In this document: in pieces, positions 2,283 through 46,791 of the stretch
Layout: the number at the start of each line of letters is the position of its first letter
Position numbering within the stretch: the stretch's first letter is position 1
Origin: Prorocentrum cordatum
Taxonomy: Eukaryota > Sar > Dinophyceae > Prorocentrales > Prorocentraceae
Direction: 5' to 3'
Length of the DNA: 64,000 nucleotides
Assembly: GCA_963575745.1 (NCBI GenBank)
Contig: CAUYUJ010019115.1
Location: 177,041-241,040, forward strand
Program-made: the position numbers and the translations under genes
Notes under the pieces: model-generated
Told to the model about the DNA's origin: nothing
Databases searched by the model: none
What the model saw: only the letters and a program-made list of their open reading frames with translations

Positions 2283-2283
2283 G

Positions 2284-26487: not shown

Positions 26488-26492
26488 CTGTT
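26488..26492 (+). repeat. Target-site duplication, left copy
   Basis: CTGTT immediately before the 5' LTR, repeated at 42573-42577. Confidence 0.85.
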
Positions 26493-26756
26493 ACTTTAAG
26501 GGTAGCTCTTTGGGAGATGTTATAGTATCGGGAGCATAGCTCGCGCGCCGTTGCCTTGGGCTCAAGGCACGCGCGCCCTATTTGCCCGGACACCGCGAGT
26601 GTTCGCTATGTGCTGGAAAGACCGATACATCGATCTTATCCTATCTTATCCGTCCATTCCTCTTACTGAACAGCCTCAGTACGATACCGGACGCTATTTG
26701 CCATCCGCTTCCCATGGAATCGGATGCTATTTGAGTTACCAGGCTCACTTTCGACT
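26493..26756 (+). repeat. 5' LTR
   Basis: Begins actttaagggtagc and ends ctcactttcgact. It differs from the 3' LTR by three substitutions. The usual TG...CA ends are absent. The boundary may shift by one base because the target duplication and LTR start share an A. The promoter should lie here; no TATA box is obvious. Confidence 0.92.
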
Positions 26757-26768
26757 TGGTAGCGGAGC
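26757..26768 (+). promoter_or_regulatory. Primer binding site
   Basis: TGGTAGCGGAGC directly follows the 5' LTR. It begins TGG, complementary to a tRNA CCA end, and closely resembles the initiator-Met tRNA site used by Ty1/Copia elements. The exact tRNA is inferred. Confidence 0.8.
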
Positions 26769-27162
26769 TGGCCGCACTCTCGTGTGGTCAGCTCTTGCTC
26801 TTCTTAGCCTCATACTCTTCGGCCCGATCTTCGTGACCACCTACCACCCTGCGCTTTCACTCCCAGTACGTTTACGAGGATCTATCCAAGAGCAAGAAGC
26901 GACACGAGAGGTACGACGTCTAGACAACGACATTGGTACCATATACGCTTCATCATTGCGCTACTACCAACCGCTCGGCAAGGAACCAAAAGCGCAATAC
27001 CTGAAGCATGGGCGGAGAGATCCGCCAGATAGAGCGCCTCGAAGACTCGACAAGGCGCTACCCCAGCGCGGCAACGCGCCTCATAACCACCCCTATCTAC
27101 ATAGCCTTGGGCTGGTTATCTTCGCTATCATATGGTTCGCGCCGGGGGCAGCAATCGGACAC

Positions 27163-28770
27163 ATGCGTCGTGGAGACAACAGCACCGATGGGCAAACACA
27201 TGGCCCATATTGGGACCCTCAAGGCAACGTACCTTTCCGCGAGTACGTTTATGAGGTCAACGCATGGCTCAACGTCACAAGCGGACGTATGACGCCACAG
27301 GCCCAAGCGGCCGCCATACAACGCGGCCTGGGTGGCCTAGCGAGGACACTCGCCATGAGGGTACCGCCAGACATTATAAATTATGGTGCTGACATCGATG
27401 GGGTCCACACCGACCCAGTGACGTACATCATGTTCCTCCTAAGCATGAAGTTCGAACGCCTGGAAGATGAGCGCCAGCTCACTTCCGGCACACAACTCAT
27501 CGACTTCCACGTGCCTCACGGGGAACGAATCGATGTCACCCTTACCCGATTCGAAACAGCCCGGCTTGAGGCACAGTCGGTGGGATTTGACCTTCCCAGA
27601 TTCCAACTACTAACCACGATCCTGTTCCGCGCTTTAGGCGTCGGCAACCAGCGAGCCATGCAACTCTTACAGCCACTCAATCACCAAATGCCCCGAACAC
27701 AACAACAGTATGATGAGTTGCTGGAGAGGATGCGTTCGATAGGTCACCTATCTGAACGGTCTCCTGGTAATATAGGATCTGTGTTTGGAAGGGGAAGGGG
27801 ATCTGGTAGTGGAAATTTCTACACTACCTTGACCACTGAAGCCCAGCCTGGGAACGGGCCCTCAAGCATATGGGCCGATGATCCTGGAGAATCCACTGCT
27901 CTACTAGCAGGAGATCGATCACAACCAAGCTGGGCAACCAGCCCTCCTTCTAGAGAACCACAACCACACCGTTCCTTATGGGGTGAATCAAACCCCCTAA
28001 CCGACGGTGTATCCACCTACTTGGGATACGATGACTTCGACTCCGGCACCGACACAGATACTATATCATCAGACGGTGTTGAAACTTTAGATTGGTCAGA
28101 TATTATGAATATGGATAATGACAATCAGCGTGCTGAACAGTTGTTCTGGTTATTACAACAGGCTAAACGGAGGTGGATGAGGTTCACACGACAACCAGTG
28201 CGTCGTGTTAGGAGGAGGATACGGAGGAGCTTCAAGGGAAAAGGTAAAGGTAAACGAGGTCGTCGGAGGTTGAACGGACGAGGCATCACGGCATTCCTCC
28301 AGAGGCTCTCAGATGAACAACATGATGAGATATTCTTCGGGGGAAAGGGCCGTGGCAAGGGCCGCAGAGAGACCTCAGGAAAAGGCAAGGGTAGGCGGGG
28401 AAACCCGCGAGGTAGAGACGGCCAGGTTCTCAAGTGCCATGAATGCGACAGTGCCGACCATCTTGTGCGAGATTGTCCAGCGAAGGGAAATGGAAAGGGC
28501 AGGTCGACCGAAGTCCGTTTTGGCTCAAGTGAACCGTTCATCGAATATCTGAGCCTCCAAGATTTTGAGGCCATGGAACAGATATTTTACACTTGGGTCA
28601 GTTGCATGGACAACGTCGACGAGCTCGAGGCGTATGGTCATGGATTGTACGCGTACTACCTCGAGTACGTCCGCCGGTTCGTTATTGGCAACAACGAGCT
28701 CACTCCCGTGGACCACGGTGCGCTGGGCAACCAGCCTCTTTCTTCGACTGGATGTTCGGGAACCCAGTAA
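27163..28770 (+). CDS. Gag with CCHC zinc knuckle, 535 aa
   Basis: The open frame begins inside the LTR (26551), but 27163 is the first ATG after the primer site. Residues about 20-200 form a helical capsid-like region (NVPFREYVYEVNAWLNVTSG; MSMKFERLEDE-type helices). A low-complexity linker follows, then a very basic Gly/Lys/Arg region (FKGKGKGKRGRR and repeats). CHECDSADHLVRDC is a CX2CX4HX4C knuckle. Role: capsid and genome packaging. The stop TAA 28768-28770 is followed four bases later by the next ATG. Four GNRA hairpins lie in this ORF (27846, 27929, 28395, 28722). Confidence 0.8.
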   Translation: MRRGDNSTDGQTHGPYWDPQGNVPFREYVYEVNAWLNVTSGRMTPQAQAAAIQRGLGGLARTLAMRVPPDIINYGADIDGVHTDPVTYIMFLLSMKFERLEDERQLTSGTQLIDFHVPHGERIDVTLTRFETARLEAQSVGFDLPRFQLLTTILFRALGVGNQRAMQLLQPLNHQMPRTQQQYDELLERMRSIGHLSERSPGNIGSVFGRGRGSGSGNFYTTLTTEAQPGNGPSSIWADDPGESTALLAGDRSQPSWATSPPSREPQPHRSLWGESNPLTDGVSTYLGYDDFDSGTDTDTISSDGVETLDWSDIMNMDNDNQRAEQLFWLLQQAKRRWMRFTRQPVRRVRRRIRRSFKGKGKGKRGRRRLNGRGITAFLQRLSDEQHDEIFFGGKGRGKGRRETSGKGKGRRGNPRGRDGQVLKCHECDSADHLVRDCPAKGNGKGRSTEVRFGSSEPFIEYLSLQDFEAMEQIFYTWVSCMDNVDELEAYGHGLYAYYLEYVRRFVIGNNELTPVDHGALGNQPLSSTGCSGTQ

Positions 28771-28774
28771 CATT

Positions 28775-29107
28775 ATGGCCTACGAAAGCAGTGACGAGGA
28801 CATCACTGTGGAGGCCTCGCCTTCCGAGGTTGAACGCAACCTCCAACCTCCACCTGAACTCCCGCCTGGAAACAGGCCTGCCTATCCCCAAACTAATGAA
28901 GAACTTATAGATATGGAGTCTCAAGCGTTCGTTCAAGCTTTCATTGCAGGTGAACCAGAGATCTCATTTGCACCCCCTGGTTCGCTTGTTCCAGGCGAGT
29001 GCGGACCACGTGCACTTCTGCAAACCTTCATGAGGATGCATGAGATACTTATCTACTTATCATCGCACATCCCGAGAGTCAAGAGAGCATCGAAGCTGGT
29101 ATCATGA
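28775..29107 (+). CDS. Small ORF2 of LTR element, 110 aa
   Basis: ATG 28775 comes four bases after the Gag stop, and its own stop TGA overlaps the next start as ATGA (29104-29107). It is acidic at the N-terminus (ESSDEDITVEASPSEVE), then Pro-rich with PPGNRP from a GNRA hairpin, then helical. No family is recognised. The junctions on both sides suggest translation by termination-reinitiation. Confidence 0.55.
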   Translation: MAYESSDEDITVEASPSEVERNLQPPPELPPGNRPAYPQTNEELIDMESQAFVQAFIAGEPEISFAPPGSLVPGECGPRALLQTFMRMHEILIYLSSHIPRVKRASKLVS

Positions 29108-30319
29108 TGCTGCAGGACACCGACGCCTGCGATGACTCGGAGTTAGTGTTGGCAGCTTTGACTCTCATTGACAGCGTGCATCCTGAGGACGTGCAGAGAC
29201 ACGTGATATACTCCCGCGGGAGATGGCGCGATGCTCTTGAAAGGGCCATCGCCATGCGCGGTCAGGCTCTTCCTCCGCCAGGATGGGGTCTCCAGGCGGT
29301 GGGACTGTGGCCAAACAATACGGCCATGCGCAACATTGCCGGGCAGCCTGTGCTCGGCAACGGGCCTGAGCCGACAACCGTGCCGCCTACCCCGGGGCAG
29401 CCGAGCGACGCACAGACGCCGGCTATGCAGGGAAATCTGCCTGTCCCAGCTGCGCCAATGGCCATCATCATTGGTAGTTCTACATCAGAAGAAGAAGAGG
29501 GCGATGGTTGCGGGCTATGCGAGGACGAAGTCGCAATCCTCATGATGGAAGTCAACGGAGAGGTAGAGGTGGACTTTGATCCCGACGAGCCTGAAGTACC
29601 ATCACCATCGGCACAAGCGCAATTTGCGCCGAGCTCCAGCCAGCAGGGAAACCTGCCTCATGTGGCCGATCCACCTGGGATCGCACAAGAGCCTCCGCAG
29701 GCGCCTCCGCCGGCTACCGCTCAGGCTGCTTCGGCAGCCTCTTCTGATGAGAATGCAGGAAGGTCTTGTTCCCATCCACGTGTCAGAGGAGAGCCACATC
29801 CACGGGCTCGGCTTCCTCGTGAGTGGAGGCAGGCTGGCCCGAAAGAACACGCTCTCAGGCGAGGAGGCCAGCTGCTTCCACATGATGACCCAAGACGCCG
29901 AAAAGGGGAACACTCGGCCTTCGGCAAGGGCAACCCTGCCTATAGGGACGCTGAGGGAAAAGGCCATCCGCGGAGGCTATCAGCTTGCAACAAACGTCCG
30001 CCGCCCTGAAATTGAAGAAGTGCGGACCCAGCTGCGAAACATCATCGCGGCTCGCAAGCAGTATAGGCCTCAAGCAGCTTGCGGACCTTGTTCCGAGCCG
30101 TTCCAGAACCACAGGCCGGGATGCCCCGTTGGCAACAATGAAGGTCTGAGCCCAAACAGGGGCAAAACCCTTCATAAAGAGGGCCATCCGCCACTTATCC
30201 CGATGACACAGGACGAGATCGCAGAAGTGAATCGTCGTCTCGGGATCCTGGGCCACTTGATCCGAAACAGGAAGAGGAGAAGTCTACCCCGGTTCCAAGG
30301 GGAGGACTGGTGCCCATGA
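29104..30319 (+). CDS. ORF3 of LTR element, with +1 frame change near 29750
   Basis: ATG 29104 overlaps the previous stop. The frame is sensible to about 29750 (helical N-terminus, acidic EEEEGDGC..CEDE segment, QGNLP motifs). It then becomes Arg/His-rich nonsense, while the +1 frame becomes sensible and runs to TGA 30317-30319. That second part includes RRPEIEEVRTQLRNIIAARK and CGPCSEPFQNHRPGC, a CX2CX6HX3C zinc-binding pattern. Either a 1-bp deletion or programmed +1 shifting is needed. The stop overlaps the next start as ATGA (30316-30319). Function unknown. Confidence 0.5.
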
Positions 30320-32511
30320 CCCAGGGAGAGAAAGACGCGCTCTTTAGTTTTCCTGGTATGCGAGGAAACTCGCCCGGCGTTTCTAGTCAGTCCCAACAAC
30401 CAGAACTGACATCCAAGGATGAACAGAAGGCCCAACGTGTGGCGGAGGACGAGGAACGCATGCGGATAGCAGACGAACGCGCACGCGAGGCAACTCGCAA
30501 GATGTTGGAGGATTCCAGCAAGATTTACATGACGGGGGCTAGGAAACCCCCGCTCCCACTACTTTCGAAGGCTAAGAGTGAAACCCCGGCACCAAAGTCG
30601 TCTTCGGAGGTGAAACCGAAAGCGCGCTCTCAGGATCCTGGGCCAGATGTGCAGATGGAGGCGCCTCGCTCTGCAACTCCGAGACCGCCGATTGGCGCAA
30701 CTCCTGCACAAGCGTCTGAGCCCAAGCAGCAACCTCAGGACCCTGTGGAGGAACGGAGACGCCCGCCTAGTCGCAGCAGCTCCATTGCTAAAAGGGCGGC
30801 AGCTTTCGAGCGCACCGGGCATGCCCCTGCGCCAGCTTCGCCTGTGGCGGCCCGCTCCAAAAGGTCCGACGAAGGTGCTATGTCTAGGGGTGCCTGGGTG
30901 CCGACGATTAGGGGCAGCGCCAGTCGCATATCACCGCGGGGAAACCCGCCAGGCGCTGCCGCTGCAGCTTCCTCCTCTTCAGGAGCCGCAGCCTCTTCAG
31001 CGACAGAGGCTCCTATGCGGGGAAACCCGCCCGTGGATCAGCTGCACCACTCAGGGGACACGTCCTTCACCAGTGTGACTCCGAGTGTGATCAGGGATAG
31101 ACTTGCTCTGCGAAAGCTCCCACCGATGCGCTCGGTGGATGAGGCATTCATGAAGAAATGCAGGCAAGCTAACATCCTTCCTACATCCAATCACACTCTC
31201 AAACAGCTGAGTAAAGCTCTCAGCAGGATATGCAGACATGCGCCAGACAAACCTCACAATCCTGTGTGGGACCTGGCTTCCTTCGATGATCATGATGGTT
31301 GGATTAACCTCGTGGAGCTCGTGAATGATTATCCGTGGAACACAGGAAAATCGAGACACGATGGGTATAATCCAAGACATGACGAGGCCAAAGTCATCAA
31401 TGCGAACCTATATGCTGTCACGGTTGACCAACTGGCAGCCATCATGATGGAAGTGGCTCATGTCCGTGAACCAGACGGAGAAGAAAAACAGCGCCTTCAG
31501 CTCAAGGTGTTAATGCGGGACTCCGGTGAGCCCGAGATCTTCATCCGCGCCTCTCAGGGGCATTCATGGACATTGAAAGCTCCATGGTCGCTGTACAACT
31601 ATATTGTACTGTGCGACCAACCTGCCGGGAGACCGGCCCCGCACCCCGAAGTCGCCATGCATGGCACTCGGTGGCATGCTTTCGAAGGCATTATGTGGCA
31701 CGGCTTGTCCTGTAGACCCGAGCACAACACGAAGAAACGGGGGGCAGGCCGGTCGCGCATCCACTTCGTGCCGACGGCCCGCCGTCGTGCCGTGAACAGT
31801 GGGTGGGACCCAGACTCAGACATCATCATCTTCGTAGATTGGCACAAGGCCATGCAAGATGGTATGAAGTTCTGTTGGTCTGATAACGGAGTCCTTTTGT
31901 CCGAGGGAAACAACGGTATCATCGAACCGTACTACATTTCCCATGTAGAGGACCTGGCCACGGGGAAGCACTGGCACAATCCCGAATACATGGGGGATCG
32001 CCGGGCGCGAGTCCCCCCCGCCGTGCTGTCGGCCCCTGGCAGGTGGGCTGACGTTGGCAGTGCCAGCGTCAAACACCAGTGGTCCCGAGACCAAGAGGGC
32101 GTCGACCCTCCCATGGTCTACCTCCACAGGGAGGTTGGGGATCACTACAGTCCCGCCAAGCTGGGAAACCAGCCTGAGGTCCACCAGATCTTCATGATCA
32201 CCGAGAGTGAGGCCGGGAGTGCGGCTCCAAGCCGCGCCCCAAGCCAAGGGCCTAGTGCCGTATCTTGGCAGGCCATCAGCATCTCGGACTTGGACCAGAT
32301 AGCGGCCGCTTTGAACCCCGAACAGGTGGAGCAATTGGCGGATAGGTTATACCAACAGGACCCCTGGGCCGCAGGCCAGGGAGCAATGTCCGCCATGGCG
32401 ACGCGAAATCGTCAGGCCATGCAGGGAAACCTGCCTATAAATGGACTCAGAGCTGAGATGCCTGAGCCGCAGGGAGACCCGCAGACGTTCGGCCGCATCT
32501 GCTCGATTTGA
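30316..32511 (+). CDS. ORF4 of LTR element: Tpt1/KptA-like RNA 2'-phosphotransferase domain
   Basis: 731 aa. The first ~290 residues are a disordered Lys/Glu then Pro/Ser-rich region. Residues about 292-550 match Tpt1/KptA. LSKALSRICRHAPD (Arg307, His308) is the N-terminal winged-helix motif. HDGWINLVELV, KQRLQLK and FIRASQGHSW (Arg411, His416) follow. MHGTRWHAFEGIMWHGLS (His449) is the NAD-binding HGT motif. SRIHFV, DIIIFVDWHKAMQDGMKFCWS and NGVLLSEGN complete the ADP-ribosyltransferase lobe. Of the four catalytic residues known in yeast Tpt1 (Arg, His, Arg, Arg) three are kept; the last sits in SGmR, which here is SGWD (495-498). So the fold is clear but activity may be altered. Tpt1 normally removes tRNA splice-junction 2'-phosphates. 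Confidence 0.82.
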   Translation: MTQGEKDALFSFPGMRGNSPGVSSQSQQPELTSKDEQKAQRVAEDEERMRIADERAREATRKMLEDSSKIYMTGARKPPLPLLSKAKSETPAPKSSSEVKPKARSQDPGPDVQMEAPRSATPRPPIGATPAQASEPKQQPQDPVEERRRPPSRSSSIAKRAAAFERTGHAPAPASPVAARSKRSDEGAMSRGAWVPTIRGSASRISPRGNPPGAAAAASSSSGAAASSATEAPMRGNPPVDQLHHSGDTSFTSVTPSVIRDRLALRKLPPMRSVDEAFMKKCRQANILPTSNHTLKQLSKALSRICRHAPDKPHNPVWDLASFDDHDGWINLVELVNDYPWNTGKSRHDGYNPRHDEAKVINANLYAVTVDQLAAIMMEVAHVREPDGEEKQRLQLKVLMRDSGEPEIFIRASQGHSWTLKAPWSLYNYIVLCDQPAGRPAPHPEVAMHGTRWHAFEGIMWHGLSCRPEHNTKKRGAGRSRIHFVPTARRRAVNSGWDPDSDIIIFVDWHKAMQDGMKFCWSDNGVLLSEGNNGIIEPYYISHVEDLATGKHWHNPEYMGDRRARVPPAVLSAPGRWADVGSASVKHQWSRDQEGVDPPMVYLHREVGDHYSPAKLGNQPEVHQIFMITESEAGSAAPSRAPSQGPSAVSWQAISISDLDQIAAALNPEQVEQLADRLYQQDPWAAGQGAMSAMATRNRQAMQGNLPINGLRAEMPEPQGDPQTFGRICSI

Positions 32512-32515
32512 GCAG

Positions 32516-35455
32516 ATGCATGGGAGCCCCTCGCAGAGCATGCACACACCGAGGGGCATGACCCCAATGGCTACGCCACCTGCGCAGTCTCCGTTCGGGA
32601 CTCCTGGCCGCCCTGCCACGAACGGCACCCTCATGGAGAGGATCGCAGCGGCTAGGGCTGAGCATGGCACAGCTCTCCTGAACATGATGCCGCCCGGCAC
32701 TCCAACGAGTCAGCAGGGAAACCTGCCCGGCACCCCAAGCCATCATCGGCCGTTTGCTGGACAAACCACAGTCGCTGGTGTGCCTGATGACTACCGTGCA
32801 AGAGTGGCGGCCGCTGTGCAACAGGTGCAGAGCCATAATCTGCCTCACCCAAGTGGTCAGAGGTGGAGGCCGGCCTGGTCCTGGGAGCCCGAGGGTCCCA
32901 ACCCAAGGGATCCTGCTCGGCAGCGAGCCTTCATCCCAGCGTTCAATGCTCACCCGAGCATGGCCCAGGGCCAGAGGCCACCGCCAGCGCACATGAATCC
33001 GCCATTGTACCCTGATGGGTCCAGGGTTCCGAACAAGTTTGTTCGCGAATTGGCGGATGAGCTCCACAGCCTCACTAACGTGCGCTGCAGTGATCAATCT
33101 ATGTATCCGCACATGGCCTTCATGCCTTCACCGACGACGCCAGATGTGGCTGTCCAGCCCACTGCCCATTCGATATCGTCTGGCAGTAGGGGCGTGCCTG
33201 ATTATATCAAGCAGACATACCACACACAAGAGGCATGCTTCAGGCGAAGACAGGCCGTGCAGAGCGTACGAGATCATTCACGTGCAGCTGCACTTGAGGT
33301 TGTGAGAAACAGAGGCTCACCTTTGCGAGGAAACTCGCCCGCTGTGACCCCTACCACCTCCGTGCCAAATGCCGGAGTGCCGGAGGTGCTGGATCCAACA
33401 GGGGCTCCCCCAGCTGCCTTCATGCCCTCCGAGACGGTATTGGAGAGACAGCGGCGGGTATATCCCAGAGCAGCAGATGTAGAAGTTTTCACTGGGATGG
33501 AAGATACCTGTGCGGTATGCCTCGAAGACTCTCAGCCCAGGGAAAGTGTTTACCGTTTGAGGTGTAATCACTTGTTCCATGAGGGGTGCTGGTATTCAAA
33601 TTTGGTGGGCCATGTCACAAATCAGCGCGAGGGAGATCCTCAGCAGCCACCATGTGCTATCTGCCGAGCACCTGGCATCATAGCGTCATCATTTCCGTGG
33701 ACCGGCTCCTTCATTCAGACTCCTGAGCAAGCGGCGAGGGAGCTGCGGGAGTTCAGGAGCATGGTGGAGGAGATGACGGCCAGGATGCTAGATAGGCAGA
33801 CAGCTCAGCCCCAACAGCAGGGAAACCTGCCAGAGGAGGTGAGGCCGCCGATGGAGACGGGATACTTCGATCAGCTTATCCCGATGACGGCGCCTCAGCA
33901 GGGAAACCTGCCTAATACTCCTCAGATGTTTCCCCAGAGTGGGGGTGGGGCAGAGACGGCACTGGACCCTGACCAGCTGCGTGAGTTGCGTGTTCGGCAT
34001 TTCCAGAATCAAATGGATAATGCACACACGACTTTTATGCTGGATGCCGATAATCCTGAGACTGATAGTCCGTCGCTTGACATCTCAGATTCCTCAGTGG
34101 CAACAGCAGCAACGGCAGCCAGGGCCGTCGATATCACAGCGACGAACGAGCAGTTCGAGGAGTGGCTGCAATACAGGGATCACCTCACGAATGAGGGGCT
34201 GCAGGATATTGCCCTTCACTCGTATCTGACGCTGACGAGACGCACGACCCGCGAACAGTATAAGAGCATACGTGATGAGTATGCCAACTGGCGGGAGGAG
34301 CGCGGCGATCACGTCCAGCACGTGTCGTACTTCCAGTACATCGACCTGGTGCGCATGGCCGAAGGCAGGCCGTATGCCAGCGTCATGCGGGGCAACCCGC
34401 CAGGGAGTGCGACCGACTCGCGGGGAAACCCGCCTGACGGCACAGCCGACACTTCAGAAACGGTGCACATCAAGCAGCCGAGTAAGACGTTCTTGGATGA
34501 TGGTGGAAATTCCATCCTCATCGATGTAGGCTCGAAGATCAACATCATGGGCGAAAACACGAGCCGCAAGTTCGTCCAGGCTGCTGAGGCACATGGCCGT
34601 ACTTGTACGTTCGAGCCCCGCTCTCGTTTGAATATCAACGGAGTGGGAGAAGGGTCGGCCCCAGCGGATACCGTAGGCACCTTCAGTATTGCCTGCGAGT
34701 ACCAGGGGTCGACCCAGCTCGATTCGTATAAGACGAACATTGTTTCAGGCTGTGGCAAAGACCTGCCGGCCATCCTAGGCCTCGATAGTATGCAGGACAA
34801 ACGCACGATCATCGTGCTTGAACGAGCCCAGGAGAAACTGATATTCCCTGGTAAGGGGCAGGTCAAAATGGAGCTCCCCGAGGGCTCCAAGATCATGCCG
34901 ACGACGAAGTTGCCGTCAGGGCATCTGTCGATCAGGTGTGATCGTTTTGGAGCTGCGGGGCAACCCGCCTCGAGCTCAAGCAGCACGTCATTCCAGACAG
35001 TGCTGACGGGCGAGCCGACCCCGGCGCAGGAGCGCGAGCAATTGCAGGGAAACCTGCCTCAGGGGTTGATGGAGACGCTCGCCAAGGCCACTATGCGAGG
35101 CGATAACATCGACGATCTTGAATCGTTCGATTGCTTCGTTGCCAGGAAACTGGCCCAGCATGGTGGAAGTGTACCAATGGACGCTGCGCGGTCCCGCCGG
35201 AAGATAGTAATGGGGTACACTCACCGTGAGCTGCAGACGGTCAGCGACGCTAGGTCCAAAGGCGTGCTGAAACAGCTGATGGATAACCCATCCATGCTGA
35301 CAGCATTTGCGGAGCAATCCGCCTCTGAGGCCACGGCGCGCTGCAGTGGCCCAGATGCTGGCAGACATTGCAGGCGCATCTTCTTTATCTCGAAGATGGC
35401 AGGGCGACGTCGCCCCCTCGTCGTCTTGCCTGTTGGCCGAAAAGCCGGGGGGTAA
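32516..35455 (+). CDS. ORF5 of LTR element: RING-H2 finger plus retropepsin-like protease, 979 aa
   Basis: ATG 32516 lies five bases after the ORF4 stop (TGAGCAGATG). A Pro/Gln-rich N-terminus leads to a C3H2C3 RING finger (33509-33667): CAVCLEDS, LRCNHLFHEGC, PPCAICR. RING fingers usually recruit E2 ubiquitin-conjugating enzymes. A helical middle region follows. A retropepsin-like domain occupies about 34470-34900, with ILIDVGSKINIMG (DVGS where DTG or DSG is usual) and the hydrophobic ILGLDSM. Nine or more GNRA hairpins encode QGNLP, RGNSP or RGNPP here. The end overlaps the next frame by ~150 bases, with the sensible switch near 35340. Confidence 0.75.
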   Translation: MHGSPSQSMHTPRGMTPMATPPAQSPFGTPGRPATNGTLMERIAAARAEHGTALLNMMPPGTPTSQQGNLPGTPSHHRPFAGQTTVAGVPDDYRARVAAAVQQVQSHNLPHPSGQRWRPAWSWEPEGPNPRDPARQRAFIPAFNAHPSMAQGQRPPPAHMNPPLYPDGSRVPNKFVRELADELHSLTNVRCSDQSMYPHMAFMPSPTTPDVAVQPTAHSISSGSRGVPDYIKQTYHTQEACFRRRQAVQSVRDHSRAAALEVVRNRGSPLRGNSPAVTPTTSVPNAGVPEVLDPTGAPPAAFMPSETVLERQRRVYPRAADVEVFTGMEDTCAVCLEDSQPRESVYRLRCNHLFHEGCWYSNLVGHVTNQREGDPQQPPCAICRAPGIIASSFPWTGSFIQTPEQAARELREFRSMVEEMTARMLDRQTAQPQQQGNLPEEVRPPMETGYFDQLIPMTAPQQGNLPNTPQMFPQSGGGAETALDPDQLRELRVRHFQNQMDNAHTTFMLDADNPETDSPSLDISDSSVATAATAARAVDITATNEQFEEWLQYRDHLTNEGLQDIALHSYLTLTRRTTREQYKSIRDEYANWREERGDHVQHVSYFQYIDLVRMAEGRPYASVMRGNPPGSATDSRGNPPDGTADTSETVHIKQPSKTFLDDGGNSILIDVGSKINIMGENTSRKFVQAAEAHGRTCTFEPRSRLNINGVGEGSAPADTVGTFSIACEYQGSTQLDSYKTNIVSGCGKDLPAILGLDSMQDKRTIIVLERAQEKLIFPGKGQVKMELPEGSKIMPTTKLPSGHLSIRCDRFGAAGQPASSSSSTSFQTVLTGEPTPAQEREQLQGNLPQGLMETLAKATMRGDNIDDLESFDCFVARKLAQHGGSVPMDAARSRRKIVMGYTHRELQTVSDARSKGVLKQLMDNPSMLTAFAEQSASEATARCSGPDAGRHCRRIFFISKMAGRRRPLVVLPVGRKAGG

Positions 35456-35873
35456 CAAGGACAGCGGGGTAACCTGCCTTAGTAAAGACAGCGGGGTAAC
35501 CTGCCTCAGTAAGAGGGCTTTTGTCATTGAAGATACGAGAGAGGCTTGCGCCGACCTCCGCACCCGAGGGTATATCTGTGATCGTATTTCCCACAATGAG
35601 CTTATGACAAGCGTGGGTACAGTTTACCTGGGTGCGGTGATCAGTGGAGATTACACTCTCATATGGATTAGTACCCCGGGTGACTGGTATGTACGAACTC
35701 CAGGAAAGAGAGTGGCCCCACATTGGTCACGTATCCAGAACCTGTTGATAAAAGCCAAGAAACTCCGTATGGAAATCATTATATTTGGTCCCCCAGGATA
35801 TGTTTGGAAGTTATCTCCAGCACGTGATACCCTGGAAGATCTTAATCTGTCAGTAATACGGATGCGTCTGTGA
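35307..35873 (+). CDS. Pol N-terminal segment, methyltransferase-like module, ended by TGA
   Basis: The open frame is in the same phase as the long pol ORF and is separated from it by the single TGA at 35871-35873. After a junk-like start, the segment from about 35515 looks folded: RAFVIEDTREACADLRTRGY, then TLIWISTPGDWYV, a helix of SRIQNLLIKAKKLRM and EIIIFGPPGYVWKL. This alternation of beta strands ending in Pro motifs resembles a degenerate SAM-methyltransferase Rossmann fold. The text continues sensibly across the TGA into HFGIRFN. Two 27-bp tandem units with GTAA hairpins (35464, 35491) lie just downstream of the ORF5 stop. Confidence 0.55.
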   Translation: MRSNPPLRPRRAAVAQMLADIAGASSLSRRWQGDVAPSSSCLLAEKPGGNKDSGVTCLSKDSGVTCLSKRAFVIEDTREACADLRTRGYICDRISHNELMTSVGTVYLGAVISGDYTLIWISTPGDWYVRTPGKRVAPHWSRIQNLLIKAKKLRMEIIIFGPPGYVWKLSPARDTLEDLNLSVIRMRL

Positions 35874-35894
35874 CATTTCGGTATTCGGTTCAAT

Positions 35895-38800
35895 ATGCAA
35901 GACAGTGCACCGAGTGGTACTCATATGCAGGTAGCGTCATCAATACCGATTAGCTCGAAGCTGTGGGCATGTACATGCAAACAGGCAATACCACAACATG
36001 TGTTGGATTGGTACGGTCATACAGTACGGCATGCTGAATGGCGAGCTCAGACACGTACTACACTCATCCGTCATCTGAACGACAACATCCTGGGGAGCAC
36101 CACCACGCACGGAAACGTGCCTGTATATTTAAACACTTATACACGTACGGACCACAACATCCATCACTACGTGACGACCAACAAGGGAGGACCGAAATGG
36201 TCTAATGTTATCCGACGTGTAACGATTAACCTGGATACCAATGCGGTTATTCAGGGTATCTCAGTTACCGATCAACCAACAGGGTATGATTGGCATGCAC
36301 CACTACCTGCAGGGGTTGCCAACATCAGCACTCGGTTGTATTGGCAACCCGAGGAACCGGTCTTCCTCGGAAACGAGCCTACTCAATCACCACAGAAACC
36401 TCGACGCGTCATCATAGATGACTGTTCTCTCCCCCTCCCGACTCTGGCGATTGACGCATGTAGCCACTCAACCACGACAATGGGCACACAGACCGGCGAA
36501 CAAAACGAGCAAGTTTTACCTACAGAATCGCGTATCAAGCAGAAGGAAAGGCTCAAAGCCGAAAAGGAAGCAGGCATCAAGCCTCGCCGCATTAAAAAGC
36601 ACGATGAAGACGGAAACGATGATTGCGGCGACGACTTGTCAGGACTCGGACAGGATCTTATGGCGACCTGGAGTACTGACGTCCCTATTGAGCTGATAAG
36701 CTCCGATGAGGACGATGGCCTGTTCCTTACCCTCCCCACATCCATGCCCGACACACGCGCTAACATATACAGCATAGTCGCTACACTGTGCTATGGTCAT
36801 AACAACTGCGTGGATATGTTGGAGCTTTGTGGCGGTGAGGGTGGTATCTCAGAGCTTGCCTTCTCAAGGGGACTCTCCTCAGGAGGCAACCTAGACAAGA
36901 CTACATATGTCGACCTGGGAGACCCCTCGGTGCAGCGGGTTGTGGATCATTACTTCGCTATATGCTACGTACGAGTTGCCATTCTACAACCCAGTTGCCG
37001 CACTACAGGACCACCATCCTACTACAACTACAAAGTCAATCACAACACTTGGGAACAGCACCACAGAGAATATTTACCACACGTAACTTACTGTGGTAAA
37101 ATTGCTGTAACCCAATATGACGCTCGGAGGTGGTTCATACGCGAACAACCGACAGGAACATGGGTGGATGATATTTCCCCATGGAAGAAACTTGCCAACC
37201 GACCACACATTACAAGCGTACGCATTGATCAATGTGCTACGGGACTCAAAGATACGACTGGTGACTATATTAAGAAGCCGACAAATATCACCAGCAATGA
37301 CGAGACAATTCTTAAACCCTTTGAGCGACTCAAATGCAACGGTCAGCATGTGCACGCACAACCGTGCAATAAAGAGCTTTCACTGGCACAAAAATACACT
37401 CGACGACTGCAGTGTGCCTTCGTGGAAGCCGTCTATCTGGCGAAAGCCATTGATACTACGCGCGGAAACGCGCCTATAAGTACCGCGCATGCTTACCCTG
37501 CAGACCTTCCCGATCAAGCTGAACCAGGCGAAGGTATGAGACGCATCGGTGATCGTATCATCCCAAAGGTGGCCACCTGCCCGGCATGCATCGACAACGT
37601 CCGAAAGGACAGTCCTAGCCATAACAGAGACCCTACGCAGTGTAAATATCATGATTCCATCTCTGTATATTGGCCATGTCCCGCATGCCAGAGGGATCTT
37701 ACGAGAAGCAAAGGTGTTAAGAACCACCTCGATACCGAACCTGGTAAATGTCGTTTTGCTGAACCATTTAAACTTCCAGACGACCACGACCCCGAAGGCA
37801 AAACCGTGCCAGCTTGGTGGAAACCCTTACCTAAACCTGGTGAGGGCCAAGCTTCAGCTTCAGGTGGCCGCCAAGGCGCACACGCCAGGCCACCACGACC
37901 ACGATCCTTCGGTAACGTTGATCCGACATCTGGTGCCAGCAGTTACGACATGCTACGAGACGCCCCCGAGCGTGGAAACGCGCCTTCTGCGTCCTCTAGC
38001 GAAGCGCCACAGGTAGCGGCCCGTCGTGGCCGCCTACAAGGCGTACCACCACCTCCAGATGCAGTCGACGAAGGAGACCGACTGCGGAGAGCCACAAGGA
38101 ACCTTCTTGCCTCTACCGGTTCTGGGGCTCCACGACTACCCGACTGGACGAGATTCGACATCCAACGCAGTCTGCAAAATCTCCGTAGTCACGAACCTCA
38201 TGTCGTTAAAAAGGAACTCCGTAAACTGCACCTGCGATGGTATCATGCGAAGGAACCCAAGATGAGGCTAATCCTCGACAAAGTGGGGCTGGATAACGTT
38301 CGACTGAACATGATCAAAGAAGTTTGCGACACCTGTCGGGAATGCAGAGCATGGGAACGTCCAGGAAACTCAACACTACCTTCGGTGAGCCTTCCTGGTA
38401 ACTGGCTCGATGAAGGCGAAATAGACCTCATGTTCTACAAGAAACGGACCATATTTCACATTATGGATCGTTGTATTCGCCTGGCAGCAGGCCAAGAAAT
38501 TTCCGACAGAGAACGTGACGCTATCCTTGACGCCTACCACTACTGCTGGGTTGCCTATCACGGACCCTTCAAAGTCTTATACTCAGACGGAGAAGGCGCC
38601 CTGAACAATGATGCCGCTAAGGCCATGATGGCCAATAAAGGCACGGAACTTCGTATCCGTGCACCTGGCCAACACGCGACTTCAATTGAGTCACGAAGCG
38701 GCATTCTCAGAGGCGTCCTCCACATGATTGAGGAAGAGCTGAATCGACACAACATCCCTGTTGTATTCATTAGAGTATTGGCAGAATGTATCTTCGTTAC

Positions 38801-40490
38801 CAATGCCTTTACGTTTTACAACGGAGTATCGCCGTACCAAGCACACACAGGACGTCAGCCCTCCTTTCTTCCTGACCTCGATACCCTTGACTTTCCCAAG
38901 GGACCCGAGACATCAGGACACGAACGAGAACGTCGTGTGAGGGAAGTTAGCCTAGAAGCCATAACTCAAGCCACTGCTGTGGCCAAGACAAATCGTGCTC
39001 TTAGGGCTCAAACGGCTCCTGATGGTGCTCGCCTTTACTCTGCAGGGGATCTGGTAGACTACCATCGACCCACTGCCACTAAGGACGATCATGGAGGCTG
39101 GAATGGCCCATTCCCGGTGATCCGTAATGTGCCTGAAAGAGGACATATCGTTGTCAAGGCAGGATCTCGTGAGGTAATTGTGATGTATCCTGATGCTCGT
39201 CACACACTATACATTGAATGTCTCCTCACACGGGAACTTGGCATGGATAATATGGCCATGCGAACCGTCCTTACATATGTGGCACACCTCGGCGCAGGGA
39301 AACTTGCCAAAGTTTTCGGCTATATCCCAGATTACAAGGGAAACCTCAATCTTTCAGACGACAGCAAGTTTCACCCGCGCGTACATCTAGCACTACAGTA
39401 TCTCGTACGAAACTACTTCCGAGTAGAGCATGTAGTAGCAGTTAGATTGGCCAAAAGTGTGTCCAGCTTACCAGCAGTAAAGTACGCCACCGGGTCTACG
39501 CTGATCCACTATGACACCGATATCAGCCCAGCTTTCCATTACTACGAGTGTGTGGGCACCGGCCTAAACATTCCTCAGATCACTGGTAGCACTCATTCCA
39601 GACTTATTCAATGCTTGACTTCACGTGTCCCTTCCTTAGGATTTCACGACGACCTGGCTAAATATCAGCACTCAAGCAACACGTCTGGAGAACACGAATC
39701 GCCTGGAAACAGGCCTCCTCCAGATACCCCAGGTGCTTCATCGCCGAGTGAAGGCCGTCTGTCGACAATCTATGAGGAAAATGAGGAACATAATATCGCA
39801 GCTATGATGCTGGAAGAGTGGTACGACGAACTACGTATGGATCTTCATCCTACGACGACTACCGACGATTATCTCTACTGCGTCCCAACAACCATGCTGC
39901 CCGACCAATGTGTTTTGGTTTCAGCATCTGTGGACGAAGAAGATGTCATATCATCGGACACGCTCGGAGACGAGCCTGAACCACGAGAGTCTTGTCTAGT
40001 CTCTCTTTGCTCAACCACACCTGACGAGAGCTACTCTCTTGACAGTGATGAATATGGTTCTTACGTTGAGTTATGTTTTACATCAGAAATGTCAAAAGTA
40101 GTGTTGGATCAGACTCAATTTGCACAGCTCGACACTGACATGGTCGCAACGATGAGAGTATATGTGTCCTCTGCTGCTAAACGTGCTGTAGTCGTTAAAG
40201 AAGATGACCTACTCACCAAAGTCGACATAGCAGCACATCCAAAGGAGGTTAGTGAAGCTTTGTGTACTGAACTCAAAATCTGGATTGACAGCCGATGCTT
40301 TGAGATGTATGATTTACCCAAAGCTTCCAACATCATGACATCCAGGTATGTATACAAGTGGAAGTTTGTAAAGGTGGGTACCGAGAACGTTAAAACCATT
40401 CGTCTCAGACTTGTCCTTCGTGGATTTTTGGATACTGAGGCTTTCGACGTGGAAACATTCTCGGGAACCGCCCGAAGGCAGTCCCAATGA
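35895..40490 (+). CDS. Pol main segment: MTase-like domain, zinc motifs, Copia integrase, RT start
   Basis: 1531 aa from ATG 35895. At about 36810-37370 lies a C5-MTase-like Rossmann domain: MLELCGGEGGISELAFSRGL (motif I), LQPSCRTTGPPSYYN (Pro-Ser-Cys) and REQPTGTW (E-x-P). At 37575-37760 are two CPAC...H...C zinc-binding motifs. Integrase: LHLRWYH...CDTCREC is the HHCC finger (38227-38350). The DDE triad is intact: Asp 38424 (EIDLMFY), Asp 38586 (YSDGEGAL), Glu 38688 (IESRSG). The RT begins near 40250 (IMTSRYVYKWKF, RLRLVLRGF). TGA 40488-40490 ends the frame where Copia RTs continue; the next codons in the same frame carry on the RT. Confidence 0.82.
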   Translation: MQDSAPSGTHMQVASSIPISSKLWACTCKQAIPQHVLDWYGHTVRHAEWRAQTRTTLIRHLNDNILGSTTTHGNVPVYLNTYTRTDHNIHHYVTTNKGGPKWSNVIRRVTINLDTNAVIQGISVTDQPTGYDWHAPLPAGVANISTRLYWQPEEPVFLGNEPTQSPQKPRRVIIDDCSLPLPTLAIDACSHSTTTMGTQTGEQNEQVLPTESRIKQKERLKAEKEAGIKPRRIKKHDEDGNDDCGDDLSGLGQDLMATWSTDVPIELISSDEDDGLFLTLPTSMPDTRANIYSIVATLCYGHNNCVDMLELCGGEGGISELAFSRGLSSGGNLDKTTYVDLGDPSVQRVVDHYFAICYVRVAILQPSCRTTGPPSYYNYKVNHNTWEQHHREYLPHVTYCGKIAVTQYDARRWFIREQPTGTWVDDISPWKKLANRPHITSVRIDQCATGLKDTTGDYIKKPTNITSNDETILKPFERLKCNGQHVHAQPCNKELSLAQKYTRRLQCAFVEAVYLAKAIDTTRGNAPISTAHAYPADLPDQAEPGEGMRRIGDRIIPKVATCPACIDNVRKDSPSHNRDPTQCKYHDSISVYWPCPACQRDLTRSKGVKNHLDTEPGKCRFAEPFKLPDDHDPEGKTVPAWWKPLPKPGEGQASASGGRQGAHARPPRPRSFGNVDPTSGASSYDMLRDAPERGNAPSASSSEAPQVAARRGRLQGVPPPPDAVDEGDRLRRATRNLLASTGSGAPRLPDWTRFDIQRSLQNLRSHEPHVVKKELRKLHLRWYHAKEPKMRLILDKVGLDNVRLNMIKEVCDTCRECRAWERPGNSTLPSVSLPGNWLDEGEIDLMFYKKRTIFHIMDRCIRLAAGQEISDRERDAILDAYHYCWVAYHGPFKVLYSDGEGALNNDAAKAMMANKGTELRIRAPGQHATSIESRSGILRGVLHMIEEELNRHNIPVVFIRVLAECIFVTNAFTFYNGVSPYQAHTGRQPSFLPDLDTLDFPKGPETSGHERERRVREVSLEAITQATAVAKTNRALRAQTAPDGARLYSAGDLVDYHRPTATKDDHGGWNGPFPVIRNVPERGHIVVKAGSREVIVMYPDARHTLYIECLLTRELGMDNMAMRTVLTYVAHLGAGKLAKVFGYIPDYKGNLNLSDDSKFHPRVHLALQYLVRNYFRVEHVVAVRLAKSVSSLPAVKYATGSTLIHYDTDISPAFHYYECVGTGLNIPQITGSTHSRLIQCLTSRVPSLGFHDDLAKYQHSSNTSGEHESPGNRPPPDTPGASSPSEGRLSTIYEENEEHNIAAMMLEEWYDELRMDLHPTTTTDDYLYCVPTTMLPDQCVLVSASVDEEDVISSDTLGDEPEPRESCLVSLCSTTPDESYSLDSDEYGSYVELCFTSEMSKVVLDQTQFAQLDTDMVATMRVYVSSAAKRAVVVKEDDLLTKVDIAAHPKEVSEALCTELKIWIDSRCFEMYDLPKASNIMTSRYVYKWKFVKVGTENVKTIRLRLVLRGFLDTEAFDVETFSGTARRQSQ

Positions 40491-41924
40491 CTCCTGGCAA
40501 GTGAGGCGGCATGCCATCCGGAGTGGATCTTAGCATCCATGGATATCGACAAGGCGTTCCTCAAGGGTTTGACCTGTGATGAACTTGCCCATGCCGCCGG
40601 CGAGGAAACTCGCATGGTCTGTTTCACTCTTCCACCGGGAAGTGCCCAGGTACTTCGCGCACTACCCGGCTTCTCATCTTATGGCGAAAGCCGACACTGC
40701 CTCAGGTGCCTCAAACCAGGAACGGGTACAAAGGTCGCTCCAAGAGCGTTCCCTCTCAAACTTCGTACGACCACACGAGCTATAGGCCTGGCACCGACCA
40801 GTTATGATCCTGAGTTTGAATTCAGCCAAGATCTGCTAACGGCAAAACATGTCGATGATATCAACATGACAGGCCTAGAGAAAAATATAGACGACTACGT
40901 ACAGCGTGTCGAAAAGGTGTTTGGCAAATGCAAGCTCAACAAACATACATATAGGAACTGCGCCGTTCGCTGCACTAAGAATGATCAAGGGGATGTGATC
41001 ATGGATCAGGACGAGTATATCAAACAACTACGTCCTATCACACACCCAGAACTTACAGGAGCGGCGGCCGATGCCAAAGCCACGAAACTCATTACCGACA
41101 TGTTCGTCAGCTTGCGAGGAGCCCTCGCCTATGCCCTTCTTATTCAAATCTGGCTCATGGTATACGTGGTCTCTCTCCAGAAAATCCAAGAGCCCACTAA
41201 TCTGCAAGTCAGACGCCTGAATGCTGTGGCGCGAAAGCTGATCAGCAGCCCGAAACGCATCACCTTCCCTCGGATGAAGCCTACGAATGAAGTGGACATC
41301 CACAGCGATTCGGGGTATCGGAAGCTCACCGGGGGGGGGGATGATGAGACCAAGGGCTACGGCATACGCGGGGCTAATGTACTACGGCGAGGAAACTCGC
41401 CTCAAGGCAAGTCCGTCGTTCACCTCTGTGACGGACTATGCAAATCACACCGACTGCAGGTGAGGTCCAGCTATGCTGCGGAGGCACTCGCAGCTGCGCA
41501 TAACCTTGATGAGTGTTACCCTACGCTCATCGCACTCCACGAGCTCAAGGCAGGAGCTCTGGCTCCACGACAACTACGAGATATGCGTGAAGTTGGAGGC
41601 CTAGCCATCAAAGTATCTCTTACCATAGACGCTGAGTCCGTTTATAAATCATTATCAAGCAAGGATCTTAAGATACCGACAGAGCGGACTCTGCTTGGAC
41701 ATATCAGTTGGTTACGTGAGCTCATGGACATAGGTATAGTACATAACGTGCAGTGGTGTGATACTAGGGATATCACCGCAGACGGGCATACAAAGGGAAG
41801 CATCGATCGGGAGCTGCTTCTGGAGGTAATGACAGGCACTCAGTCATTCAAGTATGACGTGAAGCAGTTTGTTCCCTTTCGGGGTCCCGAGGGTAGAAAT
41901 AAACCTGAGTCTAATCAATTTTAG
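40491..41924 (+). CDS. Pol C-terminal segment: Copia RT and RNase H
   Basis: Same frame as the main pol segment after one TGA; first ATG is 40539. It holds RT motif A (SMDIDKAFLKGL, catalytic Asp) and motif C (AKHVDDINMTG, both Asp kept). RNase H follows with DIHSDSGY, AAEALAAAHNLDE, TIDAESVYKSL and CDTRDITADGHTKG, so its acidic residues are kept. The catalytic sites look intact, but separation from the upstream RT fingers by a stop means readthrough, recoding or loss of function. Hairpins occur at 40600 and 41387. Confidence 0.8.
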   Translation, partial: LLASEAACHPEWILASMDIDKAFLKGLTCDELAHAAGEETRMVCFTLPPGSAQVLRALPGFSSYGESRHCLRCLKPGTGTKVAPRAFPLKLRTTTRAIGLAPTSYDPEFEFSQDLLTAKHVDDINMTGLEKNIDDYVQRVEKVFGKCKLNKHTYRNCAVRCTKNDQGDVIMDQDEYIKQLRPITHPELTGAAADAKATKLITDMFVSLRGALAYALLIQIWLMVYVVSLQKIQEPTNLQVRRLNAVARKLISSPKRITFPRMKPTNEVDIHSDSGYRKLTGGGDDETKGYGIRGANVLRRGNSPQGKSVVHLCDGLCKSHRLQVRSSYAAEALAAAHNLDECYPTLIALHELKAGALAPRQLRDMREVGGLAIKVSLTIDAESVYKSLSSKDLKIPTERTLLGHISWLRELMDIGIVHNVQWCDTRDITADGHTKGSIDRELLLEVMTGTQSFKYDVKQFVPFRGPEGRNKPESNQF

Positions 41925-42308
41925 TCTGTCCTTGTTGCCCCCCCCCGCGGTCCAATTTGCCAGCATGGGCGCCTACTGCAGAGGCGCCCTTCTAGTTGCT
42001 CGGAAACGAGCCTTACATTTTACGCCTGGCAACGAGCCGGCTTTATATGACTCAGGCTCTTTGCCTTAATACTTATTTGCTCGGTGAGGTATGGCCCGTT
42101 TGGCTTACCTCTAACTGAGCCGATAGCCCTCCATCGTTCGAAGGGGCTATCTTGTATTTGCGTGAAATGCCTTGCGAGGAAACTCGCTTTACAGTCTGGT
42201 GTTAGGCCAGACTGTACACACTGTTTTCTCTCTTGCAAACAGTTGTGCGCGCGGCCTTTGTAAAGCCTAACAGCTGCGCGGCTATGCTCTCCGTCTCCTC
42301 CCCTCCCG
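41925..42308 (+). other. 3' noncoding region of LTR element
   Basis: No ORF. It holds GNRA hairpins at 41998 and 42174 and an imperfect one at 42024. Directly before the 3' LTR there is a pyrimidine tract (ctctccgtctcctcccctccc, within about 42280-42308) rather than the purine-rich polypurine tract normally used to prime plus-strand synthesis. Confidence 0.7.
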
Positions 42309-42572
42309 ACTTTAAGGGTAGCTCTTTGGGAGATGTTATAGTATCGGGAGCATAGCTCGCGCGCCGTTGCCTTGGGCTCAAGGCACGCGCGCCCTATTTC
42401 CCCGGACACCGCGAGTGTTCGCTATGTGCTGGAAAGACCGATACATCGATCGTATCCTATCTTATCCGTCCATTCCTCTTACTGAACAGCCTCAGTACGA
42501 TGCCGGACGCTATTTGCCATCCGCTTCCCATGGAATCGGATGCTATTTGAGTTACCAGGCTCACTTTCGACT
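42309..42572 (+). repeat. 3' LTR
   Basis: Same length as the 5' LTR at constant offset 15816, with three substitutions (near 42400, 42451 and 42502). Followed by the right target duplication. Confidence 0.92.
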
Positions 42573-42577
42573 CTGTT
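42573..42577 (+). repeat. Target-site duplication, right copy
   Basis: CTGTT directly after the 3' LTR, matching 26488-26492. Confidence 0.85.
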
Positions 42578-46215: not shown

Positions 46216-46791
46216 CGGACCGATTCGCGCCGGTTTCCGCGCAGGCGCCCGGCGGCGAGCGGCTGGCACGCCCCGCTCCTTGGCCGGAGCGAGTCAGCTA
46301 AAAGGGGACCCTGCACGCCTGTTTTGGGCGTACGGCCAGTGTAGGAGGGAGAGGCAGGGGCGAGGGTGACCCCCCTCCCCCCAGCGAGCAGATGGTGGAG
46401 CTGTGACTTGCATCGCAATGATCCGAGCCCACCAGGTGGGTTCAGCGAGGCCTGCCACCGTTTTTGGCGTGACAGTACCTCGCTGGAAGTAGCGGCATCC
46501 ATCCAGCACCCCTTCTGGACCCGCAAGTGGGGAAGGCCACAGTGGACGCTTGCCAGGCGGCACACGGGCTTCGAAGAGGAGGTTCGCTGGGGCTTCTAGG
46601 GAGAAGCGTCTGGGCCGCGTGGAGGCCGGCTGCGACGGAGGCGGCGACACTCGTCGCCGAAGGGGCGGGCGAGGCCTAACGCTGGACGGTGGCGTGCAGT
46701 GCGCGCAGCGTGGTCAGGTGCGGTCGCGTCGTGCGGCGGACATGCTCCGAAAGTGAGGATTAGACGTGCTCGAGCTGGCCCTCGAGCCGCG

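Follow-up and report, generated by a model that had tools for sequence, protein, structure and literature searches.

A covarying GNRA-tetraloop hairpin dispersed through an LTR-retrotransposon-like element of the dinoflagellate Prorocentrum cordatum

Introduction

Why would one short, self-complementary sequence recur some 35 times, always on the same strand, along a single mobile element? The question is raised by a 64,000-nucleotide (nt) stretch of Prorocentrum cordatum DNA (contig CAUYUJ010019115.1, positions 177,041 to 241,040), here termed the window, which includes an element that resembles a decayed long terminal repeat (LTR) retrotransposon of ~16 kb. A preliminary description of this DNA, made from the letters alone, reported the repeated hairpin and proposed selection on RNA structure. 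The hairpin is characterized here for its pairing, covariation, strand, geometry and distribution, all of which are observed in one copy of the element, and the possible reasons for its maintenance are weighed.

A hairpin family on the sense strand

The search pattern, GCNNGGNAACNNGC, corresponds to GCNNG-GNAA-CN'N'GC, with the letters at the variable stem positions left free. Scanning of the whole window on both strands finds 35 matches, all on the + strand, from 27066 to 42187, which bears out the early count of at least 35 copies over 15 kb. The accompanying claim that the form occurs nowhere else in the window holds for the + strand; the - strand has a single match, at 46229, which is unpaired. 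The canonical copies, each listed on the basis of its match to GCNNGGNAACNNGC, are as follows.

27066..27079, +, hairpin 1
27846..27859, +, hairpin 2
27929..27942, +, hairpin 3
28395..28408, +, hairpin 4
28722..28735, +, hairpin 5
28864..28877, +, hairpin 6
29352..29365, +, hairpin 7
29643..29656, +, hairpin 8
30360..30373, +, hairpin 9
30485..30498, +, hairpin 10
30936..30949, +, hairpin 11
31017..31030, +, hairpin 12
32160..32173, +, hairpin 13
32421..32434, +, hairpin 14
32713..32726, +, hairpin 15
33325..33338, +, hairpin 16
33817..33830, +, hairpin 17
33898..33911, +, hairpin 18
34387..34400, +, hairpin 19
34420..34433, +, hairpin 20
34955..34968, +, hairpin 21
35044..35057, +, hairpin 22
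35141..35154, +, hairpin 23
35464..35477, +, hairpin 24, tandem pair with hairpin 25
35491..35504, +, hairpin 25
36107..36120, +, hairpin 26
37460..37473, +, hairpin 27
37970..37983, +, hairpin 28
39294..39307, +, hairpin 29
39701..39714, +, hairpin 30
40600..40613, +, hairpin 31
41387..41400, +, hairpin 32
41998..42011, +, hairpin 33, noncoding
42024..42037, +, hairpin 34, noncoding, one mismatched pair
42174..42187, +, hairpin 35, noncoding

With a GNAA loop in 35/35 copies (fixed by the pattern) and a paired stem in 34/35, the sequences are GNRA tetraloop hairpins. The variable loop letter is A in 24 copies, C in 8, T in 2 and G in 1, and all four GNAA tetraloops are thus sampled, as first described. 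The 5' stem dinucleotide takes ten different values among the 35 copies, not the nine originally counted. The copies at 35464 and 35491 form a 27-nt tandem duplication and are not independent. An Rfam search gave no match.

Pairing and covariation

Since the variable positions are free in the search pattern, pairing at these positions provides an unbiased test. Both variable positions pair in 34 of the 35 copies, with 28 fully Watson-Crick and 6 including one wobble. The single failing copy, at 42024 (two unpaired copies had been reported), has one C-A mismatch and one wobble. Among the 34 distinct aligned rows, the six standard pair types are all present at each of the two variable pairs, and double-sided changes account for 33 cells compared to 8.2 in shuffles. 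Paired cells reach 99.4% (79.1% in shuffles), further pair types number 10 (7.3 in shuffles, with 10 reached by 8 of 500), and the covariation score is 0.530, while shuffles give 0.098 and slid controls do not exceed 0.138. Of the eight non-Watson-Crick cells, seven are G-U and the remaining one is the mismatch. If single substitutions fell at random, with transitions favored 2:1, about a third of the deviations would be wobbles (P 0.007 for at least 6 of 7, in a test that leaves out one cell of the tandem pair).

Synonymous-codon shuffles of six open reading frames (ORFs; 1000 shuffles) retain a mean of 2.3 and a maximum of 7 paired copies versus the 29 observed, and codon-order shuffles of six ORFs (300 shuffles) retain a mean of 0.007 versus 29. 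Codon-preserving shuffles, which the preliminary description had named as a possible refutation, therefore leave the pattern standing. The covariance-model search that it had also proposed, run without filters over the two strands of the window, ranks 42 element sites, all sense and 35 of them the training set, above everything else; the top site outside the element has an E value of 0.81.

Geometry, flanks and stability

Outside the 14 letters, clear conservation is found only at C15 (31/35) and Y16 (28/35), such that the 3' flank is CY; the other flanking columns from -24 to +40 include two weak ones (0.28 and 0.32 bits). C15 is kept in 8 of the 11 copies that lie outside the frame in which the hairpin reads as the peptide xGNxP. 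A sixth pair (position 0 with 15) is possible in 1/35 copies compared to 8.5 expected from codon-position composition (P 0.0004), an expectation in which one of the 35 background bases, that of copy 28864, was drawn from the wrong frame; a separate estimate of this avoidance gives 9.7 expected (P 0.0003). A or T occupies both 5' variable positions in 0/35 copies, and one position in 13 and 12 copies (P 0.0008). At least four G-C pairs are present in 33/35 stems, the exceptions being 39294 and 42024. This fixed length, stability floor and set of fixed contact letters are marks of a maintained structure. The helix is predicted to form (P >=0.5) in 28/35 sense versus 15/35 antisense contexts. An 11-nt GAAA-receptor partner was sought by its motif and not found.

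Selection of the hairpin for RNA structure, as initially proposed, is thus well supported by the covariation, the wobble deviations, the G-C floor, the fixed 5-bp length and the restriction to the sense strand.

The carrier element

The element is bounded by near-identical direct LTRs of 264 bp (261/264) with CTGTT on both sides, as in LTR retrotransposons. Its main features are listed below.

26488..26492, strand not assigned, target duplication CTGTT, left, read from the sequence
26493..26756, +, 5' LTR, 261/264 identical to 42309-42572
26757..26768, +, TGGTAGCGGAGC, possible tRNA primer binding site by its position directly after the LTR
26551..28770, +, gag-like ORF with Arg/Lys-rich stretch (by eye) and CCHC knuckle (matched by the Pfam zinc knuckle at E 0.0022, which falls short of the curated cutoff)
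30310..32511, +, ORF with RNA 2'-phosphotransferase Tpt1/KptA domain (PF01885 E 1.3e-23; PDB 7yw3 E 8.8e-10)
32441..35455, +, ORF with RING finger (PF17123 E 5e-7) and retropepsin-like ILIDVGS (by eye)
35895..40490, +, pol-like ORF with integrase-like region and start of reverse transcriptase (RT), motifs by eye only
40539..41924, +, pol-like ORF with RT (KHVDDI) and RNase H-like region, motifs by eye only
42309..42572, +, 3' LTR, partner of 26493-26756 with 3 differences in 264
42573..42577, strand not assigned, target duplication CTGTT, right, read from the sequence

We take TGGTAGCGGAGC to resemble the 3' end of initiator tRNA-Met. A polypurine tract was not seen by eye before the 3' LTR, where the 29 bases of 42280-42308 are pyrimidine-rich; the element is therefore termed LTR-retrotransposon-like, a label on which the hairpin finding does not depend. 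Stops and frame changes split the coding region, and the copy thus looks decayed. For the 35895-40490 ORF, no Pfam rve or RVT match is listed at a maximum E of 10, although the filters drop most weak matches; the 40539-41924 ORF has no Pfam match, and a PDB search with the integrase-like and RT-like ORFs gave none. AlphaFold models of the integrase-like and RT-like pieces are uninformative (predicted local distance difference test scores of 35.5 and 36.3).

Several other observations concern the element and its surroundings. Each LTR has a G+C-rich long inverted repeat around GCCTTGGGCTCAAGGC (26542-26577 and 42358-42393). The Tpt1/KptA domain lies inside an LTR-retrotransposon-like element (30310-32511), and none of the papers matched in a literature search on this combination concerns it by title or abstract opening. 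A second ORF matching Tpt1/KptA (2260-4428, E 4.9e-7) is found among long ORFs without hairpins at the left end of the window; BLASTP of this ORF against the 30310-32511 ORF gave no significant similarity (best E 0.72). A small upstream ORF (28775-29107) contains CGPRAL, reminiscent by eye of an OTU-type protease. The dinoflagellate spliced leader has no full match and a 12-base partial match at 28518.

Distribution and imperfect members

The hairpins have a mean spacing of 444 nt. In agreement with the early report of copies in other frames and in the 3' noncoding region, the xGNxP frame accounts for 24 copies, the other two ORF frames for 5 and 3, and the 3' noncoding region for 3 (3 copies in 384 nt compared to 0.86 expected, P 0.057). 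Of the 24, 23 read xGNxP, and the copy at 28395 reads RGNPR. Canonical copies are scarce in presumed catalytic or domain regions (2/35 versus 8.1-8.8 expected, P 0.003-0.007), which here comprise the Pfam-defined Tpt1 and RING domains together with the integrase-like and RT/RNase H-like regions, whose boundaries were drawn by eye. This scarcity would be expected if the needs of coding and of RNA structure are traded off, and also if hairpins insert into tolerant linkers.

Eight further sites on the + strand of the element depart from the nine fixed letters once and keep both variable pairs intact. Such sites are absent from the - strand of the element, and two occur in the 48 kb outside, both strands together. 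A ninth imperfect member, at 35309, has an A-T closing pair.

27340..27353, +, GACA loop
29427..29440, +, G-U closing pair
31624..31637, +, GAGA loop, inside the Tpt1 domain
32915..32928, +, GCAG loop
35309..35322, +, A-T closing pair
36365..36378, +, outer pair lost
38349..38362, +, second pair lost, in the integrase-like region
38479..38492, +, GCAG loop, in the integrase-like region
39962..39975, +, GAGA loop, immediately ahead of or within the RT-like region

The + strand of the element has 41 GNRA-loop hairpins with stems of 5 bp or more, wobbles included, and by hand count 38 of them are of this form. Comparable dispersed hairpin or word families were not found within the element, and those outside are local- or simple-repeat-like. 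The LTR divergence (3/264) implies ~3.5 changes since insertion in the 44 x 14 hairpin letters; thus, some imperfect copies could be plain decay, and the active ancestor of the element probably had a cleaner hairpin set. Imperfect copies fall in domain regions in 4/9 cases versus 2/35 for canonical copies (Fisher P 0.011), or 3/9 (P 0.050) when the RT-like region is begun at 40000 or 40230. As this enrichment hinges on the RT boundary, it is not leaned on.

A probable binding site on the element RNA and its alternatives

For a covarying, sense-only hairpin that is fixed in length and letters and recurs in coding as well as noncoding sequence, the best explanation is that it serves as a binding site on the RNA of the element. 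The reading tentatively preferred, at somewhat under even confidence, is that selection keeps a protein-binding hairpin on the sense RNA, most likely as a dispersed packaging or condensation site for the Gag of the element. The genomic RNA would carry ~40 copies of one short protein-recognition hairpin, in which a 5-bp stem (G-C/C-G/N-N'/N-N'/G-C) is capped by a GNAA loop and followed by an unpaired 3' C-Y. Under selection, the fold would be preserved together with its contact letters (G1, C2, G5, loop G.AA, C10, G13, C14 and mostly C15), while the middle pairs and loop N would drift through compensatory change. The Gag-like protein, with its CCHC knuckle and Arg/Lys-rich stretch, may bind these sites and thereby choose this very long RNA and compact it for particles, which is how dispersed packaging signals operate in some RNA viruses (PMC6281560). 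Protein recognition and a packaging purpose are presumed here, and Gag is the putative binder as the most economical reader, since it must pick and condense the element RNA and has a zinc knuckle and an arginine-rich stretch.

Several points weigh against this proposal. The Tpt1-domain protein, or an RNA-binding protein of the host, would suit the evidence as well as Gag does. The spacing is not significantly regular (coefficient of variation 0.80 versus 0.96 random, P 0.11), and the first 300 nt after the 5' LTR, where retroviral packaging signals are usually located, contain no canonical copy. Most domain boundaries were drawn by eye with the copies already known, and the two Pfam domains alone have 0 copies versus 2.0 expected (P 0.13). 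With +-75 nt of surrounding sequence, seven of the 35 hairpins are predicted to stay unformed, and of 30 other hairpins in the element with a 5-bp stem and a 4-nt loop, 21 are predicted to form as well; thus, local formation is not distinctive of the family. One of the five covariation measures, the count of pairs with double-sided change (2), is the same as in shuffles, as three stem pairs never vary. Finally, the analysis covers a single copy of the element; no relative or second copy was found in the viral and prokaryote collections or in the window.

The alternative that survives best, although somewhat unlikely, is that the sites serve a binder other than Gag, either a host RNA-binding protein (acting in export, translation or decay) or the element's own Tpt1/KptA-domain protein (acting in RNA repair or processing). 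The structural evidence fits such a binder equally, and the element itself encodes an RNA 2'-phosphotransferase domain, of a family that acts on RNA. The second Tpt1-match ORF at 2260-4428 is, however, in hairpin-free DNA, such that hairpin and domain do not co-occur there. Removal of a 14-nt unit would shift the frame, yet the ORFs stay open across many copies; excision of 15 nt would leave no frame trace.

Spread of a tiny palindromic repeat, the other explanation offered in the preliminary description, is unlikely. Such a repeat would have entered the element many times over, always in sense, during its RNA or cDNA phase, and would later have drifted. This history would fit the ~16-nt conserved core with unrelated flanks, the concentration of copies outside presumed domains, the one 27-nt tandem duplication and a weak excess of neighbours that share the stem dinucleotide (7 versus 4.0, P 0.09) or the whole 14-mer (4 versus 2.0, P 0.12). 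Yet the copies are 35/35 in the same orientation, where a self-spreading repeat might be found in both, and neutral drift would break pairs, while 34/35 pair. Copies that share a stem resemble each other in their flanks no more than other copies do, which lends no support. An assumed insert length of 17 raises the mean flanking repeat to 0.71 bases, against 0.46, and the copies at 28395 and 34955 then have repeats of 4-5 bases; by contrast, lengths of 12-16 and 18 give means of 0.20-0.54 versus 0.44-0.46 random. Flanking repeats of at least 3 bases are found in at most 2/35 copies at all seven lengths (0.7-1.0 expected), such that target duplications give no clear support.

It is a good deal less likely still that a dedicated process, possibly Tpt1-linked, wrote the hairpins in while the element was RNA or cDNA, adding or copying a self-complementary sense hairpin that was then kept as an element-wide RNA label.

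Selection on the xGNxP peptide, with the hairpin as a codon by-product, is refuted as the sole cause and highly improbable overall. In its favor, 24/35 copies are in the xGNxP frame, and of the 25 GN.P peptides in the scanned ORFs (a tally that missed copy 28864), 22 coincide with canonical hairpins and, of the remaining three, 2 with imperfect members. However, the synonymous shuffles preserve the peptides and leave a mean of only 2.3 paired copies, the two x residues covary as reverse-complement codons, and 10 of the 11 copies in other frames or noncoding sequence are paired; the original argument that the peptide cannot explain the pattern is thus upheld. Since these off-frame copies pair, the frame bias is taken to reflect peptide tolerance, which probably explains it, and not selection. 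Chance or composition has a vanishingly small probability and is refuted by the shuffles, with the confinement of the pattern to the element, the covariation and the covariance model all contrary to it.

Search for relatives and prior descriptions

A viral contig collection scanned with the RT, Tpt1, integrase-like and Gag pieces, and a prokaryote contig collection scanned with the RT piece, yielded no confirmed relative, and tblastn of the element ORFs against the rest of the window found none (best E 0.36). By themselves, the LTR element, the simple repeats and the lack of prokaryote relatives would point to a eukaryotic host, perhaps an alga. Hairpin strings occur at 38 loci of the viral collection, of which one (L024) has two paired hairpins and none has more. 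The two-hairpin pattern is found at 0 viral and 3 prokaryote loci. Two of these three (L040 and L041, from one planctomycete assembly, UBA4655) are 48-nt tandem repeats with GCAGGGAAACCTGC, a layout unrelated to that of the element, and the third is an isolated pair judged unrelated. Among the matches listed by literature searches of open-licence papers, which for one search were 10 of 318, no title or abstract opening describes such hairpins.

Comparison with known systems

For MS2 and other RNA viruses, portions of Twarock et al. 2018 (PMC6281560) describe dispersed packaging signals as many stem-loops over the genomic RNA that vary around a common recognition motif; the same portions raise repurposed Gag-like proteins only as a possibility (PMC6281560). 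The element is similar in that multiple stem-loops with a common motif are spread across one genomic RNA. It differs in that its ~40 copies obey one strict consensus, its carrier is LTR-retrotransposon-like and its binder is putative.

The boxB hairpin of phage lambda has a 5-bp stem and a GNRA-type loop and is read by the arginine-rich N peptide. The element hairpin shares this stem length and loop type, whereas boxB has a pentaloop and serves antitermination. Rickettsia palindromic elements and similar repeats are palindromes of ~100-150 bp inside ORFs. The element hairpins are likewise palindromic repeats within ORFs; by contrast, they are ~16 nt, in one orientation, without clear target duplication and with compensatory stem variation. 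Like Ty1/copia, the element has LTRs, a 5-bp duplication and a possible primer site; motifs read by eye would also place an integrase-like region before RT. Unlike Ty1/copia, it is ~16 kb, has Tpt1 and RING domains and no Pfam rve or RVT_2 match, and shows no visible polypurine tract.

Significance

New in the present analysis are the avoidance of a sixth pair, the presence of at least four G-C pairs in 33/35 stems, the predominance of G-U among the deviations (7 of 8 cells), the CY flank, the scarcity in presumed catalytic regions and the lack of clear target duplications. If the hairpins are binding sites, the element would be an unusually clean natural case, in which one RNA recognition motif occurs ~40 times per genome, mostly inside coding sequence, and in which the variation between copies already sketches the binding code. 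Ideas of distributed genome packaging are hard to test where the signals are degenerate, and a binding code outlined by copy variation would make them directly testable. If true, this would also suggest that LTR-type retroelements can label their RNA over its full length and not only by one 5' signal.

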